A DNA stretch of 37,151 bases from Bacteroidales bacterium (GTDB lineage Bacteria; Bacteroidota; Bacteroidia; Bacteroidales; UBA932). The DNA is taken from contig JAAYYL010000173.1 of assembly GCA_012515395.1 (NCBI GenBank), forward strand, positions 1 to 37,151, given 5' to 3'. Position numbers and translations under genes: made by a program. Below the pieces are notes generated by a model, which was not told where the DNA came from, made no database searches, and saw only the letters and a program-made list of their open reading frames with translations. Positions 19,334-32,170 of the stretch are shown piece after piece; the first letter of the stretch is position 1; each line of letters begins with the position of its first letter.

Positions 19334-19731
19334 GGGGATGTTTTGGTTTTGACAGCAGACGACATTGGAAAGTAAGCACGTGGAGCTTCGTGTCCCGGCT
19401 CCAAAATCTCAGGACTCAAGCCATAACTGGCAACAACAATTACGCACTCGCTGCCTGATCGGTTATTAACTGATCACTTAATCAAGCCGGGCTAGGCCCG
19501 GAATGACGAGTATCCCGCCGGGACTTACGCCTTTTGGTTCCCGGCAAACGGGGTATCATTTACAAAGGGCTGGCTGCAAAGAAGCTCCGGCTTTGTAGCA
19601 AGATTTAAGGAGATAAGGAACTGATGGCCTGTCTGCAGGCAGTCTTTTTCCCGAAAACCAAATGTAGACTAAACGTGTAGAAAGCTTTTGGATGCGCTGT
19701 TTGGACGGCGGTTCGAGTCCGCCCATCTCCA
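19334..19731 (+). ncRNA. ssrA: transfer-messenger RNA (tmRNA)
   Basis: 5' GGGGATG...GGTTTTGACAGCAGAC and 3' GGCGGTTCGAGTCCGCCCATCTCCA form the tRNA-like domain (acceptor GGGGATG/CATCTCC, T-arm GGCGG/CCGCC). Internal tag ORF GGC AAC AAC AAT TAC GCA CTC GCT GCC TGA (19429..19458) = GNNNYALAA*. CCA not encoded. Confidence 0.97.
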
Positions 19732-19764
19732 CTGCGTTTAACGGGTTAAATTAAACAAGTTGCC

Positions 19765-26367: not shown

Positions 26368-27165
26368 TTATTTGAGAAAATACTGATTCAGAAAATTTTG
26401 AAAATCCTTTTTATACTGATCCCCAATGGGTACCGACGCATCCTTTCCAAACACAATCCGGTTCTGTACGACTTCAGTTATTTTTGTCAGATTTACAATA
26501 AAGGAACGGTGGACTCTCATAAAGATGTCCTTTGGCAATCGTTCTTCAATGGATTTCAGACTGAACAGGGTCATTACAGGGATACTGTTCTCGGAAAAAA
26601 TCACAACATATTCTTTCCGGCTTTCAATATACTGTATATCGGAGATTTTCAAGCGAACGGTTTTTGAATCGGCGCGTACAAAAACATATTCGCTATCCCA
26701 TCCTTTAGAAGACTGTCTGTTCCCGGGTTCATCCGCGTCTTCATCTTTCTCGGTCACTGAAGTGTCCTGGGCCCCTGCCGACGATCCGGCAGATGTGGTA
26801 TGCCTCAGTTCAAATTGTTGCCTTACTTTTTCGGCACTTCTCATAAAATCCGTCAGGCTGAAAGGTTTCAGTAAATAATCCGTAGCATCTACCTGGAATC
26901 CTTCTACGGCAAAATTGGCATATGCCGTAACAAACACAATGATAGGCCTGTCTTTGAGTGAACGAATGTACTCCAGTCCGTTAATGTCGGGCATTTCTAT
27001 GTCAGTGAAAATCACATCTACTTTTTCAGTAGCCATCACTTCCATAGCTTCAGTGGGGCCGGAACAGGCTTTTACCAGTTCCAGGTATGGGATTTTCCCC
27101 ACATACGATACCATTTGCTGTAAAGCAAGCGGCTCATCATCTATAACTATACACCTTATATTCAT
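26368..27165 (-). CDS. LytTR family response regulator
   Basis: REC domain CIVIDDEPLALQQM...VDVIFTDIEMPDINGLEYIR...LLKPFSLTDF and LytTR domain VFVRADSKTVRLKISDIQYIESRKEYVVIF...RVHRSFIVNLTKI. Confidence 0.96.
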   Translation of the reverse strand: MNIRCIVIDDEPLALQQMVSYVGKIPYLELVKACSGPTEAMEVMATEKVDVIFTDIEMPDINGLEYIRSLKDRPIIVFVTAYANFAVEGFQVDATDYLLKPFSLTDFMRSAEKVRQQFELRHTTSAGSSAGAQDTSVTEKDEDADEPGNRQSSKGWDSEYVFVRADSKTVRLKISDIQYIESRKEYVVIFSENSIPVMTLFSLKSIEERLPKDIFMRVHRSFIVNLTKITEVVQNRIVFGKDASVPIGDQYKKDFQNFLNQYFLK

Positions 27166-27176
27166 AGGTTCACTTT

Positions 27177-28211
27177 TTATAGGGGGAGCTGCAAATGTAC
27201 AATATATTCTGACTTTGTCTGTTCCATGGTTAATTTATAATTGTTCCCATACAACAGATTCAATCTTTCTTTCACATTTTTGATACCCAATCCGCCCTGT
27301 TTGGCAGTTTTGGGTTTGTCCGGAAATATGGTGTTGGAAAGTGAAAAATGGAACCACCCGGGTTCTACCCAGAAATTCATGTTGATATGTGTCTCTTCTC
27401 CGTATACAATACCGTGTTTGAAGGCATTTTCAATAAATACGATCATGATAAGAGGAGGCAGTTGAACGTTTGGAATGTCCCTGGGAACCGTGATATTAAG
27501 CTTTACATTTTCATCGTATCTCAAAAGGTTGAGGTTGCAATATGCCCTGAAGACTTCCAATTGGCGTTCAAACGAAACCTTGGTGTCCGGCGTGCTTTCG
27601 TAAAGCATATGCCTTAATAATCGGGAGAGGCTCACAATGGCATCTTTGGCCTTTTCTTCATCCGTATCAACCAGTACATGAATATTGTTCAGGGTATTCA
27701 TCAGAAAATGCGGGCTGATCTGGAATTGCAGGAATTCCATTTTGTATTTTATGAGTTTGTTATCAGCCTCGTGGGCCAGCATTTTTGATTTGATATTATG
27801 GAAAACCATACGGATGGCCACATTCATTCCCATAAGCATAAGGGCTATGACAAAATTGCTCAACAAGGTTGATTCATACGGGATGAAATTGGTCCAGGAA
27901 GCTCCGTAACGAACATCCATAATGTCTATGATGGCCTCACACCCGAAGACGATACCCAATAACAAAATAAAAACAAGGAAAAAATACGTAAAATAGTTCC
28001 CTTTCAACATAAAGACGGGCACATAAACGTAGTGGTGGATCAATAGTCCTACAAAAAAAGGAGAAAGTATGGCCCAAAGCGACAGAACGTGTTGCTGTAT
28101 TAAGAGCGGACTCAGAAAAGCTACGGCAATGATACCCCAAAGGGTAATATTTTCCAGCCTCCTCAGTTTTCTGAGTTCCTTGTTGATTTCGTATTCGCTC
28201 TGTTTTACCAT
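27177..28211 (-). CDS. LytS-type (His_kinase, PF06580-like) sensor histidine kinase
   Basis: Four hydrophobic segments then LQFQISPHFLMNTLNNIHVL, LPPLIMIVFIENAFKHGI, GGLGIKNVKERLNLLY. Confidence 0.94.
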   Translation of the reverse strand: MVKQSEYEINKELRKLRRLENITLWGIIAVAFLSPLLIQQHVLSLWAILSPFFVGLLIHHYVYVPVFMLKGNYFTYFFLVFILLLGIVFGCEAIIDIMDVRYGASWTNFIPYESTLLSNFVIALMLMGMNVAIRMVFHNIKSKMLAHEADNKLIKYKMEFLQFQISPHFLMNTLNNIHVLVDTDEEKAKDAIVSLSRLLRHMLYESTPDTKVSFERQLEVFRAYCNLNLLRYDENVKLNITVPRDIPNVQLPPLIMIVFIENAFKHGIVYGEETHINMNFWVEPGWFHFSLSNTIFPDKPKTAKQGGLGIKNVKERLNLLYGNNYKLTMEQTKSEYIVHLQLPL

Positions 28212-28252
28212 AAGGGAAATAGTATACGAATATACGATTTACTGGAGAATAA

Positions 28253-28285
28253 ATAAAAAAAAAGGCGGGATTTAGATCTCCCACC
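28253..28285 (-). terminator. intrinsic terminator between the candidate small RNA and the histidine kinase gene
   Basis: Minus strand GGTGGGA-GATCTAAA-TCCCGCC followed by nine T (28263..28255). Confidence 0.8.
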
Positions 28286-28352
28286 TGTAAAAAAGATTTC
28301 GCATCTTTTTTGTGTACGTTTTTAGTTCAAAAAACCATTCATTATTTATCCT
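28255..28352 (-). ncRNA. candidate ~100-nt small RNA or attenuated leader upstream of the LytS/LytTR genes
   Basis: Minus strand CTTG (28389..28386), 20-nt spacer, TATCTTTG (28365..28358), hairpin AAAAAAGAT/ATCTTTTTT (28289-28297/28303-28311), then the terminator at 28285..28255. Confidence 0.45.
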
Positions 28353-28357
28353 ATTGG

Positions 28358-28389
28358 CAAAGATAAAACCCCTAAACCAATATTACAAG
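28358..28389 (-). promoter_or_regulatory. Bacteroidota-type promoter CTTG-N20-TATCTTTG
   Basis: Matches the TTTG/TAnnTTTG architecture with one mismatch in the -33 box and 20-nt spacing. Confidence 0.55.
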
Positions 28390-28467
28390 GAGAATTTATC
28401 CGGATACGGGTTTTATCTACAGAACCCGCATTTTTATCAACGAACGGCTTTTTTTCTTCAACATAAT

Positions 28468-31401
28468 TTAATACCCGAATATTTCTTCAGCAGTTAATCT
28501 CACAACTTTGCCGTAGCCTGAAAGGTATTCCAGGTCTAATGCCTTGATATCACTTAAAATACAATAATCAGTAGGCCTGTCTTTGATCCATTCCCTCTGA
28601 AAGGCAACAATATCTTCAAGTGTCAGATTTTGAACATCTTCAAAGACAACTTTCCTCATATCCTGCCACATATTCTTTTCTTTGGCCTGACGGTAAAAGC
28701 TCAGAAGACTTCTGCCTGTGATTCTTTCAGTCCTGAGCGTAGAGATCAATCCTTCCTTGGCAAGTGAAAACGATTTTTCAGATTCAGGCATGTTGTTAAT
28801 GATCTCTTCAAAAGCTTCCATCGCTTCCACCATCTTGTCATTCTGGGTAGCTATGAAGCTACTGAAAACATAAGGAAATCCTTCCATATTCAGGGCCGGT
28901 TCGCTAAAACGAGCACTTGCGCTGTAAGCCAATCCCCGGGCTTCACGCATTTCCTGGAAAACAATGGCATTCATGGAAGATCCGAAATATTCGTTATACA
29001 TACGTGCCTTTGCATACGGGACATTGTCATATGTTTCGTTTTCCCTTGCTGAATAAGAAGCATAATACATCTGATTCGCATCGTACTGTGCCAGGTATAC
29101 GTTGTTTCCGGCATCAATGACGGGTTTGAAATATTCTTTATCCGGAACAGGACGCAGGACTTCTGCCATTGGCCAGGAAGTTTCCAGTAAAGTACCTACC
29201 TGCTCTATGGCAGCAGGACCGTGATAATAAACGTCCGCCTTGTATGACAGAAGATCCTGAACTTTTTTCAAAAGAGAAGCGGGATCAGTACTTTTTAATT
29301 CCCTTTCAGACATAACATTAGTAGCCGGATTCACCGGGCCGTACTGCATATATTGCTGGAGACGCTGGAAATTGGTTCTTTGGTCGGTTTTTGCATCCGC
29401 GCGACTTTTAAGCATATTCCCGGTCAGCGAACGGTACACCTCATTGTCTGATTGGGCACCGGAGATCCATTCAGCCAACAATTCAAGTGCCGGTTGCATG
29501 TTCTCGGCCAATCCGTTTAAAGTAACGGAACATGTATTTTGAGAAACATTGGCAGAGAATGTACAGGCAAGTTGGTAAAACGATTTGCTGATTTCTTCAG
29601 CAGATTTTTCGGACGTACCCAGATAATTCAGGTATTCAACAGCCACCGGCAAGGCTTTGTCAACATTGCTTCCAAGCTCGTATACAATGGATAAAGTAAA
29701 AAGGTCGTTCACTGAATTGGGCACATATACAAGTTCTACGCCTTCCCGTATTGTTTGTTTAGTAAAATCTTTTTCAAAATCTACAAAAACCGGTTCTATG
29801 GGCTCTACATCAGCAGCAAGGATTTCTTGTAAAAAGGCAGAAGATTTGTCCCGATTGGTATGAATGGGCGTAATCGCCGGTTTTTCAATTTTTTTGTATG
29901 TGGTATCAGGTCCCTGACGTTTGTATATCACAGCGTAATTGTCATCCTTAAAATATTGATTGGCAAAAGCCACAAGGTCGTCTTTAGTAACGGCTTTCAA
30001 TCTTTCAATAAAACGAATCTGCTGTTCCCAGGGGATTCCGTTGATAAACGAACTCACAAACATGTTGGCGCGTCCCCTGTTGTTTTCAAGCCTTCGCATC
30101 ATATTTAATTTATAATTATTGACGATGGCTTTGATCAACTCCTGGTCAAAATCTCCCTTACGGATCTTATCCAGGCTTTGCAACATCAGATCTTTTACCT
30201 GCTCCAGGGTTTGACCCTGTTTTGGATTGCCCTGCAATATTAATGTGCTTCTGTCTGCCAGCGTATAAGCAAAAGCTCCGGCCTGCAATACTTTTTGCTG
30301 TTGGTTCAGATCCAGGTCCATGATCCCTGCTTTCCCGTTGCTGAGAACTTCTCCCATAACGGTAAACAAGGCATCTTCAGCAGAAGCAATATGCGGTCCC
30401 TGCCAACCCAGGGTGACATACTCGGATTCCAGACCCCAAACTTCCACTTCAAGAGGACCTTCAACGGGCTTTTCCTGTGTAAGTATACGTTCGGGCAATT
30501 CGGGATTTGGCTCCCAGCAACCAAAATATTCATCAATAACGGCTATCATTTCATCGGGATCAAAATCACCGGATAGACAAATGGCAGTATTATTCGGGAC
30601 ATAGTACGTTTTGTAATAATTCTTTATGTTGGTAATGGAAGGATTCTTCAAATGCTCCTGGGTCCCGATAATGGTTTGTTTTCCGTAAGGATGTGTAGGG
30701 AAAAGTGCGGTGAAAAGTCTTTCTATTACTTTTTCACTGTCCATGGTGGAATACATATTCATTTCTTCGTAAACGGTTTCCAGTTCGGTGTGAAATCCGC
30801 GGATCACATTGTCCGAAAAACGTTCAGACTGAATTTTTGCCCAGTTCCTGATCTGGTTGGAGGGGATGTCTTCAATGTACATAGTCTGGTCATATCCTGT
30901 CCCTGCGTTGGTTCCGGTAGCTCCGATGGCAGACATAAGTTTATCGTATTCATTCGGGATTGAATATTTGGAAGCTTCCAACGATATGCTATCTATACGA
31001 TGGTAGATGGCCTTGCGTTCTTCTTCGTCCCGGGTGGCCCTGTACTCTTCAAACAGCAACTCTATCTGATCCAGAAGAGGTTTTTCCATTTCATAATTCT
31101 GTGTTCCGAACTTTGAAGTTCCCTTGAACATCAGGTGCTCAAAGTAATGAGCCAAGCCCGTTGTTTCCGAAGGATCGTCCTTGCCTCCCACCCTGACGGC
31201 TATGTATGTCTGGATCCTGGGAGTTTCATCATTAACTGTCATATATACTTTAAGACCATTATCAAGGGTATATATGCGTGCATTCAACGGATCCCCTTCT
31301 ACGGTCTGGTATGTATAACGGGGTCCGCAAGAAAATAAGACGCCTATGGCGCCTAGTGTCAAAACGGCAGTAGTAAATTTGTGTAAGAGTGACATAATCA
31401 T
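28468..31401 (-). CDS. M16 family zinc peptidase, two-domain, lipoprotein
   Basis: HxxEH in TTGLAHYFEHLMFKGTSKFGT; lipobox LTLGAIGVLFSC; second inactive M16 half. ATG 31401 (or 31395) preferred over 31479. Confidence 0.92.
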   Translation of the reverse strand: MIMSLLHKFTTAVLTLGAIGVLFSCGPRYTYQTVEGDPLNARIYTLDNGLKVYMTVNDETPRIQTYIAVRVGGKDDPSETTGLAHYFEHLMFKGTSKFGTQNYEMEKPLLDQIELLFEEYRATRDEEERKAIYHRIDSISLEASKYSIPNEYDKLMSAIGATGTNAGTGYDQTMYIEDIPSNQIRNWAKIQSERFSDNVIRGFHTELETVYEEMNMYSTMDSEKVIERLFTALFPTHPYGKQTIIGTQEHLKNPSITNIKNYYKTYYVPNNTAICLSGDFDPDEMIAVIDEYFGCWEPNPELPERILTQEKPVEGPLEVEVWGLESEYVTLGWQGPHIASAEDALFTVMGEVLSNGKAGIMDLDLNQQQKVLQAGAFAYTLADRSTLILQGNPKQGQTLEQVKDLMLQSLDKIRKGDFDQELIKAIVNNYKLNMMRRLENNRGRANMFVSSFINGIPWEQQIRFIERLKAVTKDDLVAFANQYFKDDNYAVIYKRQGPDTTYKKIEKPAITPIHTNRDKSSAFLQEILAADVEPIEPVFVDFEKDFTKQTIREGVELVYVPNSVNDLFTLSIVYELGSNVDKALPVAVEYLNYLGTSEKSAEEISKSFYQLACTFSANVSQNTCSVTLNGLAENMQPALELLAEWISGAQSDNEVYRSLTGNMLKSRADAKTDQRTNFQRLQQYMQYGPVNPATNVMSERELKSTDPASLLKKVQDLLSYKADVYYHGPAAIEQVGTLLETSWPMAEVLRPVPDKEYFKPVIDAGNNVYLAQYDANQMYYASYSARENETYDNVPYAKARMYNEYFGSSMNAIVFQEMREARGLAYSASARFSEPALNMEGFPYVFSSFIATQNDKMVEAMEAFEEIINNMPESEKSFSLAKEGLISTLRTERITGRSLLSFYRQAKEKNMWQDMRKVVFEDVQNLTLEDIVAFQREWIKDRPTDYCILSDIKALDLEYLSGYGKVVRLTAEEIFGY

Positions 31402-31414
31402 TTGGTTATTTATA

Positions 31415-31422
31415 CAAATGTA
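31415..31422 (-). promoter_or_regulatory. -7 box TACATTTG for the M16 peptidase gene
   Basis: CAAATGTA on + strand, 13 nt before ATG 31401. Confidence 0.45.
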
Positions 31423-31477
31423 CAAATATTTGTGCTCGGCATTGTATTTGCTGTAAAAATCAAAAAAAAACAAAAAC

Positions 31478-32170
31478 ATGGAACCTGCTTCAACAGTGTC
31501 TTACTACTGGATCATTTTCATAGGAACCGTTTTGCTCAGCTGGATAGTCCAGTCGCTGCTCCGGTCAAAATTCAGAAAGTATTCCAAAATACGGGTCACC
31601 TCCGGATTAACCGGAGCGGAAGTCGCCCGGAAAATGCTGCATGACAATAATATTAATGATGTACAGGTCACCTCAACCAGGGGGAGGCTGACAGACCATT
31701 ACAATCCGGCCACCAGGACAGTAAACCTGAGCGAAGGTGTATACGGCAGTAACAGCATTATGGCGGCCGCCGTTGCAGCTCATGAATGCGGTCACGCGTT
31801 ACAGCATGCACGCGGCTATGTTCCTCTGAAAATGAGATCCACACTGGTTCCCGTGGTTAGCTTTGCCTCACAATGGGTCATATGGGTAATCCTGGCAGGC
31901 ATGCTGCTCATAAAAACATTCCCCCAACTGATGCTTTTCGGGATCATTTTGTTCGGGCTGACCACACTATTCAGCGTCATCACGCTTCCGGTTGAAATCA
32001 ATGCAAGCCGTCGCGCACTTGCCTGGCTTAACGAAAGCGGGATCACCAATTATGAAACGTATCCCATGGCAAAAGACGCACTCCGCTCTGCAGCATATAC
32101 ATATATTGTTGCCGCATTAAGCTCCCTAGCCACTTTATTCTATTATATCACCCTCTTTTCCAGACGTTGA
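31478..32170 (+). CDS. YugP-like neutral zinc metallopeptidase, membrane
   Basis: AAVAAHECGHALQHARGY (HExxH), YNPATRTVNLSEGVYGSNSI, TM segments, CDS ends LATLFYYITLFSRR. Confidence 0.92.
   Translation: MEPASTVSYYWIIFIGTVLLSWIVQSLLRSKFRKYSKIRVTSGLTGAEVARKMLHDNNINDVQVTSTRGRLTDHYNPATRTVNLSEGVYGSNSIMAAAVAAHECGHALQHARGYVPLKMRSTLVPVVSFASQWVIWVILAGMLLIKTFPQLMLFGIILFGLTTLFSVITLPVEINASRRALAWLNESGITNYETYPMAKDALRSAAYTYIVAALSSLATLFYYITLFSRR

Follow-up and report, generated by a model that had tools for sequence, protein, structure and literature searches.

A candidate small RNA conserved beside a LytS/LytTR gene pair in a Bacteroidales genus, with a predicted target at the translation start of a DUF4402 gene

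Few small RNAs (sRNAs) of Bacteroidota are known together with both their control and their target. According to the accessible parts of the reports, GibS, BatR, and FopS of Bacteroides thetaiotaomicron repress by pairing at translation starts (PMC7366714, PMC10861873, PMC11697453), and repression by GibS was noted to work although its mRNAs lack Shine-Dalgarno sequences (PMC7366714). The accessible text of the GibS report also gives the promoter type of the phylum, with TTTG at -33 and TAnnTTTG at -7 (PMC7366714). In Clostridium perfringens, VirR binds to a pair of direct repeats ahead of the -35 element and controls protein genes and VR-RNA, which in turn controls plc, colA, ptp, and cpd (PMC2838878). 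AgrA of Staphylococcus aureus is a LytTR regulator (PMC4227749). LytTR regulators bind imperfect direct repeats of 8 to 13 bp that lie about 12 bp apart, with the core CCGTTCGTC in the case of AlgR (PMC4064291), and a spacing of 9-12-9 bp is typical for their sites (PMC6193735). The sequence of the locus described here allows a regulator, its site, an sRNA, and a target to be proposed jointly.

We analyzed a stretch of 37,151 nucleotides (the window) from a metagenome-derived Bacteroidales assembly of 1.55 Mb that is 79% complete. All features of the locus lie on the minus strand. Reading the sequence directly, we found a gap of 256 bp between the end of the stop codon of an M16 peptidase gene (28468..31479), which is upstream context outside the sRNA, and the ATG at 28211 of a LytS-type histidine kinase gene (PF06580, 27177..28211). 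The kinase gene is followed by the gene of a response regulator with a LytTR DNA-binding domain (26368..27165; PF00072 plus PF04397, the latter at E 3e-20), the presumed binder of the direct repeats described below. Within the gap, the -33 element CTTG (28386..28389; mostly TTG or TTTG in relatives) is separated by 20 nucleotides from the -7 element TATCTTTG (28358..28365; TTAnCTTTG in 12 genomes). A sigma-70 scan did not list this promoter because it has the TTTG / TAnnTTTG form of Bacteroidota. The predicted transcript, a small RNA of about 97 to 99 nt with the 5' end AGGAUAAAUAAUGAAUGG, covers 28254..28352, with +1 predicted at about 28352.

The RNA begins with a near-invariant stretch that includes a predicted unpaired seed, AUAAUGAAUG (nt 8 to 17, 28336..28345), followed by a second potential pairing block, GUUUUUUGAACUAAAAA (nt 18 to 34, 28319..28335), which forms a 6-bp hairpin when the RNA is folded alone. 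Next come an AT-rich 9-bp hairpin (28289..28311), AAAAAAGAU-GCGAA-AUCUUUUUU in the RNA with the DNA arms AAAAAAGAT and ATCTTTTTT, and an intrinsic terminator (28254..28286) made of AGGUGGGA...UCCCGCCU and nine U residues, in which the G+C-rich hairpin spans 28286 to 28263 and is followed by nine T in the DNA. A mini-ORF from ATG to TAA (MNGFLN) lies at 28342 to 28322. Downstream of the terminator is a separate -7 element for the kinase, TCGTATATTCG (28227..28237), which contains TATATTCG at 28234 to 28227. The gap, the CTTG-N20 box, the two hairpins, the T run, the mini-ORF, and the kinase box had all been listed in an earlier note on this DNA, and each was found again at its place; absent from that note were a short third hairpin in the RNA (GUUUUU-UGAACU-AAAAAC), the three direct repeats that precede the promoter (28467 to 28410), and the near-invariance of the first 41 nt.

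The predicted fold of the RNA has an energy of -23.2 kcal/mol (z = -3.1), and only 1 of 200 shuffled sequences was equally stable. A terminator scan ranked the hairpin among the strongest minus-strand matches, within a region (25 to 32 kb) that holds 18 terminator-like sites compared to 7.0 expected. Strict and permissive Rfam scans found no family at its cut-off in this gap, the sole match in the window being a tmRNA gene elsewhere (19334 to 19734, plus strand, RF00023, 158 bits). The best sub-threshold match, to sroB (20.1 bits against a cut-off of 44, E 3.2), was driven by the terminator and was rejected.

Each of the 12 other genomes in the genus has the region before the orthologous kinase gene, with synteny kept. 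Because the contig of one genome (G002) starts inside the RNA, 12 of the 13 genomes, including that of the window, have a readable copy. All 12 keep the sRNA unit in single copy, with its own promoter and its own intrinsic terminator, as is the case for trans-acting sRNAs, and this conservation argues that the unit is not a product of chance; the genus is one lineage, so its orthologues are not independent. In the alignment, the -7 box (TTAnCTTTG) is kept, the bases between the box and +1 have diverged, and near-invariance sets in with the AGG at the predicted +1 (28352). Across nt 1 to 41, the 12 genomes differ by only two substitutions, one in G010 and one in G009, and by a 2-nt insertion in G005. 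The sequence from the M16 stop codon to the promoter, by comparison, has diverged among the aligned genomes.

The earlier note had named stem covariation as a check on the RNA, and the outcome was mixed. In the aligned copies, 98.6% of cells preserve the three hairpins; real covariation is confined to one terminator pair, which appears as U-G, U-A, C-G, and A-U across the copies. The covariation is weak because variation is low and the rest of the stems are almost invariant. A covariance model built from the aligned copies gave one strong match in each genome of the genus and nothing credible outside it among 300 genomes of the family and 393 of the order; two weak matches in the family (E 0.003 and 0.008) were terminator look-alikes. 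The named relatives of the genus found here are all metagenome assembled, and the closest kinases among public contigs belong to Bacteroidales metagenome-assembled genomes, one of which is labeled Rikenellaceae bacterium DTU002.

Upstream of the sRNA promoter, we detected a periodicity of 21 bp. At this lag, the mean best match was 10.3 of 14 positions, compared to 6.6 +/- 0.4 in shuffled sequences, none of which exceeded 8.0 at any lag, and lag 21 is the single lag that stands out; because the orthologues are related, the z-value of this periodicity overstates its significance. The periodicity reflects three half-sites, ATTATGTTGAAGAAAA (28452..28467), CGTTCGTTGATAAAAA (28431..28446), and GTTCTGTAGATAAAAC (28410..28425), whose central G residues (28462, 28441, and 28420) lie 97, 76, and 55 bp before the -7 box. 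The same three distances recur across the 12 genomes; in two species the sites are shifted outward by one base, and some copies are degenerate. The half-site consensus is about CTTTCGTTGATGAAAA. The window carries CCGTTCGTT, and the second half-site with its upstream base reads CCGTTCGT, as in AlgR/LytTR sites. The promoter is accordingly preceded by what characterizes LytTR promoters, namely at least two direct repeats of about 9 bp, about 12 bp apart.

Given this form and the adjacency of the genes, the LytTR regulator encoded downstream is the most likely protein to bind the three half-sites. The genomes carry further LytS-type kinases and hence probably further systems of this kind, so some regulator besides the adjacent LytTR protein might occupy the repeats; however, the typical LytTR arrangement of 9-bp repeats about 12 bp apart yields the very 21-bp step observed, the core CCGTTCGT agrees with that of AlgR, the LytTR gene of the window lies in the operon directly downstream of the repeats, and an ortholog of the kinase follows the repeats in all congeners read. 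Taken together, we regard binding by another regulator as unlikely, if still worth bearing in mind.

We searched the genus for the half-site pattern. The best matches fell at the sRNA, and a second conserved locus carries three tandem half-sites; protein-coding matches, TTTGATGAAATGATTGCGTACGTAGATGAAA among them, were left out of account. A run of DUF4402 genes (PF14352), whose products are secreted, begins at the second locus and is accompanied by a gene for a protein with a weak Fn3-like match. Genome-wide controls were run on the nearest genome (G007), which is 97% identical to the window over the sRNA region, has both the sRNA and the DUF4402 locus, and was taken in stretches. Using a matrix trained on sRNA promoters only, we scanned 2.13 Mb of this genome and obtained 36.7 and 32.1 at the sRNA promoter, which belongs to the training set, 30.3 at the DUF4402 promoter, which lies outside it, and 17.9 at the next match. 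The match at the DUF4402 promoter carries TATCTTTG at a distance of exactly 55. A third conserved repeat locus, GTTTATAAAAAAnGnnTCTTTGTTGATAATT (L113-L115), was set aside and not counted as a LytTR site, as it is absent among the matrix matches in this genome. It sits about 180 to 200 bp upstream of a lipoprotein gene, is conserved in about nine genomes, and gives the impression of a DnaA-box-like TTATCAACAA inside.

In ten species, the DUF4402 half-sites fall on a grid of 76, 55, and 34 relative to their own -7 box and share the helical phase of the sites at the sRNA promoter. Exceptions are G001, G003, and G012, in which only the site at 76 reaches the threshold, and G006, in which the grid is one base off. 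The LytTR regulator therefore probably also drives the DUF4402 operon, as judged from these identically phased sites. The DUF4402 proteins are only 25 to 63% identical between species, yet the start region of the gene is kept. Because the DUF4402 locus was not found in the window's own assembly, the evidence for the target comes from congeners, chiefly G007. A sequence search for solved relatives of DUF4402 returned nothing significant.

In six genomes, a contig ends at the DUF4402 gene or at its promoter (C4 of G001, C51 of G006, C62 of G009, C97 of G012, C17 of G002, and C84 of G011). This pattern looks as if strain variation or repeats break the assemblies, and DUF4402 may be a hypervariable surface gene.

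We compared the sRNA with the translation starts of the DUF4402 genes. The start of the mRNA reads [CT]ATTCATTATGAAAA, and its complement is the unpaired nt 8 to 17 of the sRNA; the seed is a perfect complement of the start region CAUUCAUUAU(G). The sRNA is thus predicted to resemble trans-acting sRNAs in having a conserved seed, free to pair, that complements a translation start. Exact occurrences of CATTCATTATGAAA number 0 to 2 per genome, and most are starts of DUF4402 genes. The exact form is found at DUF4402 starts in G005, G006, G008, G009, and G010, and a T variant marks the start in G001, G003, G004, G007, and G012, so that complementarity at the start codon is kept in 10 species. The exact form also occurs at a different DUF4402 gene in G011 and, at a contig end in G002, probably at the counterpart of that gene. 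Many DUF4402 leaders add UUUUUAGUU[U/A]AAAAAAC, which is complementary to the second block of the sRNA (nt 18 to 34). The resulting duplexes of 10 plus 17 bp through the start codon have predicted energies of -22 to -23 kcal/mol in G001, G004, G007 (leader at C3:473590-473680), and G012. The duplexes are AU-rich, and elsewhere they are weaker, at -14 to -17 kcal/mol in G005, G008, and G010 (-14.0 in G005); G005 and G010 do not keep the second pairing block.

Whole-genome RNAduplex searches were dominated by GC-rich loops; therefore, we used cofolding, which charges for opening both structures, on start regions. Among the 1,721 starts of G007, the DUF4402 start ranked third by duplex energy and z-score and first by cofolding, at -17.6 kcal/mol against a mean of -4.6 (sd 2.4), with runners-up at -17.0 and -16.7, so it is no isolated outlier. 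With 200 shuffled sRNAs, the DUF4402 start never came first among 151 starts. The mean energy over ten leaders was -19.9 for the real sRNA and -15.8 for the best shuffled one, with none of the 200 reaching the real value. Since the promoter repeats had picked out the candidate before complementarity was ranked, neither line of evidence depends much on the other.

The cofolding runners-up, two other starts that score nearly as well as DUF4402, bear on whether a real sRNA might act mainly on other mRNAs, or on several at once. The chief competitor is an outer-membrane barrel gene, of which both the start and the 3' end are among the best whole-genome duplex matches in G007 and of which the stop codon carries the complementary CGTTTTTAGTTCAAAAA in G000, G003, G004, G007, G012, and G002. 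However, the barrel gene was found in just 7 of the 13 genomes, part of its match is coding constrained (YRF-stop), and its promoter in G007 has no half-site pair; a barrel target would, moreover, leave DUF4402 possible as a target too. We consider it doubtful that the main targets lie elsewhere than DUF4402. Around the stop codon, CGTTTTTAGTTCAAAAA is kept in six of the seven species that have the barrel gene, including the window's genome (L119-L125). As this sequence is complementary to nt 20 to 36 of the sRNA, the barrel mRNA may be a second target.

A different kind of complementarity was observed in G007 alone (contig C9, 44240-44300, minus strand; L052/L233), where a sequence almost perfectly complementary to the 5' end of the sRNA, GTACGTTTTTAGTTTAAGAAACATTCATTATTTATCCT, follows a gene that by eye resembles that of a purine nucleoside phosphorylase. 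It is followed by a CGATCA-TTATTTATCC-TGATCG hairpin that exposes a further complement of the sRNA. The element might act as an RNA sponge or represent a copy of the sRNA gene that has decayed.

The earlier note leaned toward an independent sRNA but also considered a leader whose readthrough controls the kinase operon. A cis-acting leader of this kind, read from 28352 into the operon under the control of the leader or the mini-ORF, would fit the presence of a short ORF and the position of the terminator, which lies ahead of the kinase gene in the same orientation, its U tract about 42 nt from the ATG. However, the sequence T[CT]GTAT[AC]TT[CT]G is conserved in all species between the terminator and the kinase ATG, where the note had suggested that TATATTCG could serve the kinase, and this second -7 element makes a separate kinase promoter probable. 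Because nt 1 to 65 contain no CC, no antiterminator against the GGUGGGA arm of the terminator can form there. The mini-ORF was rejected as a coding feature, since every base is invariant, including the wobble positions, and its stop codon lies about 35 nt before the terminator; neither an alternative antiterminator nor a leader peptide that would control readthrough was found. In addition, the 5' end of the RNA has a better-supported target elsewhere. These observations leave a cis-acting leader very improbable, and together with the conserved promoter, the near-invariance from the predicted +1, and the conserved terminator, they support the reading of the unit as an independent small RNA rather than an attenuator. 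Least probable of all is that the hairpin merely terminates the M16 mRNA with no separate RNA made, which the note had also allowed and which agrees with the hairpin being the first terminator-like site downstream of the M16 stop on this strand to have a complete T run, but which explains neither the conservation of the -7 box and the near-invariance of the 41 nt from +1 nor the phased repeats and the divergence between M16 and the promoter. The independent sRNA unit may additionally stop readthrough from M16.

The locus thus presents, in its sequence, a conserved promoter, RNA, and terminator, phased repeats shared with a second promoter, and conserved complementarity. The best explanation of the whole, which we consider probable, is that the LytTR system controls the DUF4402 operon together with a trans-acting sRNA that limits the operon's translation. 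In this proposal, an sRNA of about 97 nt would be transcribed from its own Bacteroidota-type promoter and act in trans. The LytTR regulator would bind half-sites at 21-bp steps upstream of both promoters and activate both, as the position of the repeats just upstream suggests. The near-invariant 5' end of the sRNA is predicted to pair across the DUF4402 start codon and would block ribosome loading there. We infer binding by the LytTR regulator, activation rather than repression, and repression at the level of translation. Activation of both promoters would make the arrangement an incoherent feed-forward loop, restricting either the level or the timing of a surface protein. More tentatively, and with slightly less than even confidence, we suggest that the regulon consists of essentially two promoters, those of the DUF4402 operon and the sRNA, and that its output is a self-limiting pulse of, or a ceiling on, one possibly hypervariable surface structure. 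Because no paper on DUF4402 was found in the open-access literature searched, the circuit would provide a first handle on DUF4402 control.

How does this proposal compare with the described systems? In S. aureus, AgrA drives RNAIII, which is encoded beside the agr genes, is transcribed divergently from the agr operon, and acts on surface-protein mRNAs; RNAIII is about 514 nt long and encodes a peptide too. The locus described here likewise combines a LytTR regulator, an adjacent regulatory RNA, and, by prediction, surface-protein mRNA targets. The two RNAs differ in size, with about 97 nt for the sRNA here, and to our knowledge they are not homologous. The likeness to VirR-VirS, compared by description, is that a response regulator acting at direct repeats governs protein genes and a regulatory RNA; the differences are another phylum and another spacing of the repeats, and, where VR-RNA controls plc, colA, ptp, and cpd, the sRNA here has its predicted pairing partner within its own regulon.

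Within Bacteroidota, GibS, FopS, and BatR are, in the accessible parts of their reports, likewise intergenic sRNAs with a seed for pairing at start regions, in many cases those of surface or uptake genes. As far as the same texts go, the seeds of GibS and FopS are at the 5' end and single-stranded, as predicted for the seed here, FopS shares the promoter type and the intrinsic terminator, and the sRNA here differs from all three in being single copy and in having a different seed. A permissive Rfam scan gave no match to GibS/FopS, a family whose presence in the release searched is unconfirmed. Control by a LytTR regulator is not described for GibS, FopS, or BatR in the accessible text (PMC7366714, PMC11697453, PMC10861873), and no Bacteroidota sRNA under a LytTR regulator was found in the open-access literature searched. 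Given repression at start sites by GibS, BatR, and FopS and the precedent of VirR and VR-RNA, the circuit proposed here belongs to a known kind; novelty, as far as our searches reach, lies in the RNA family and in its regulator and target.
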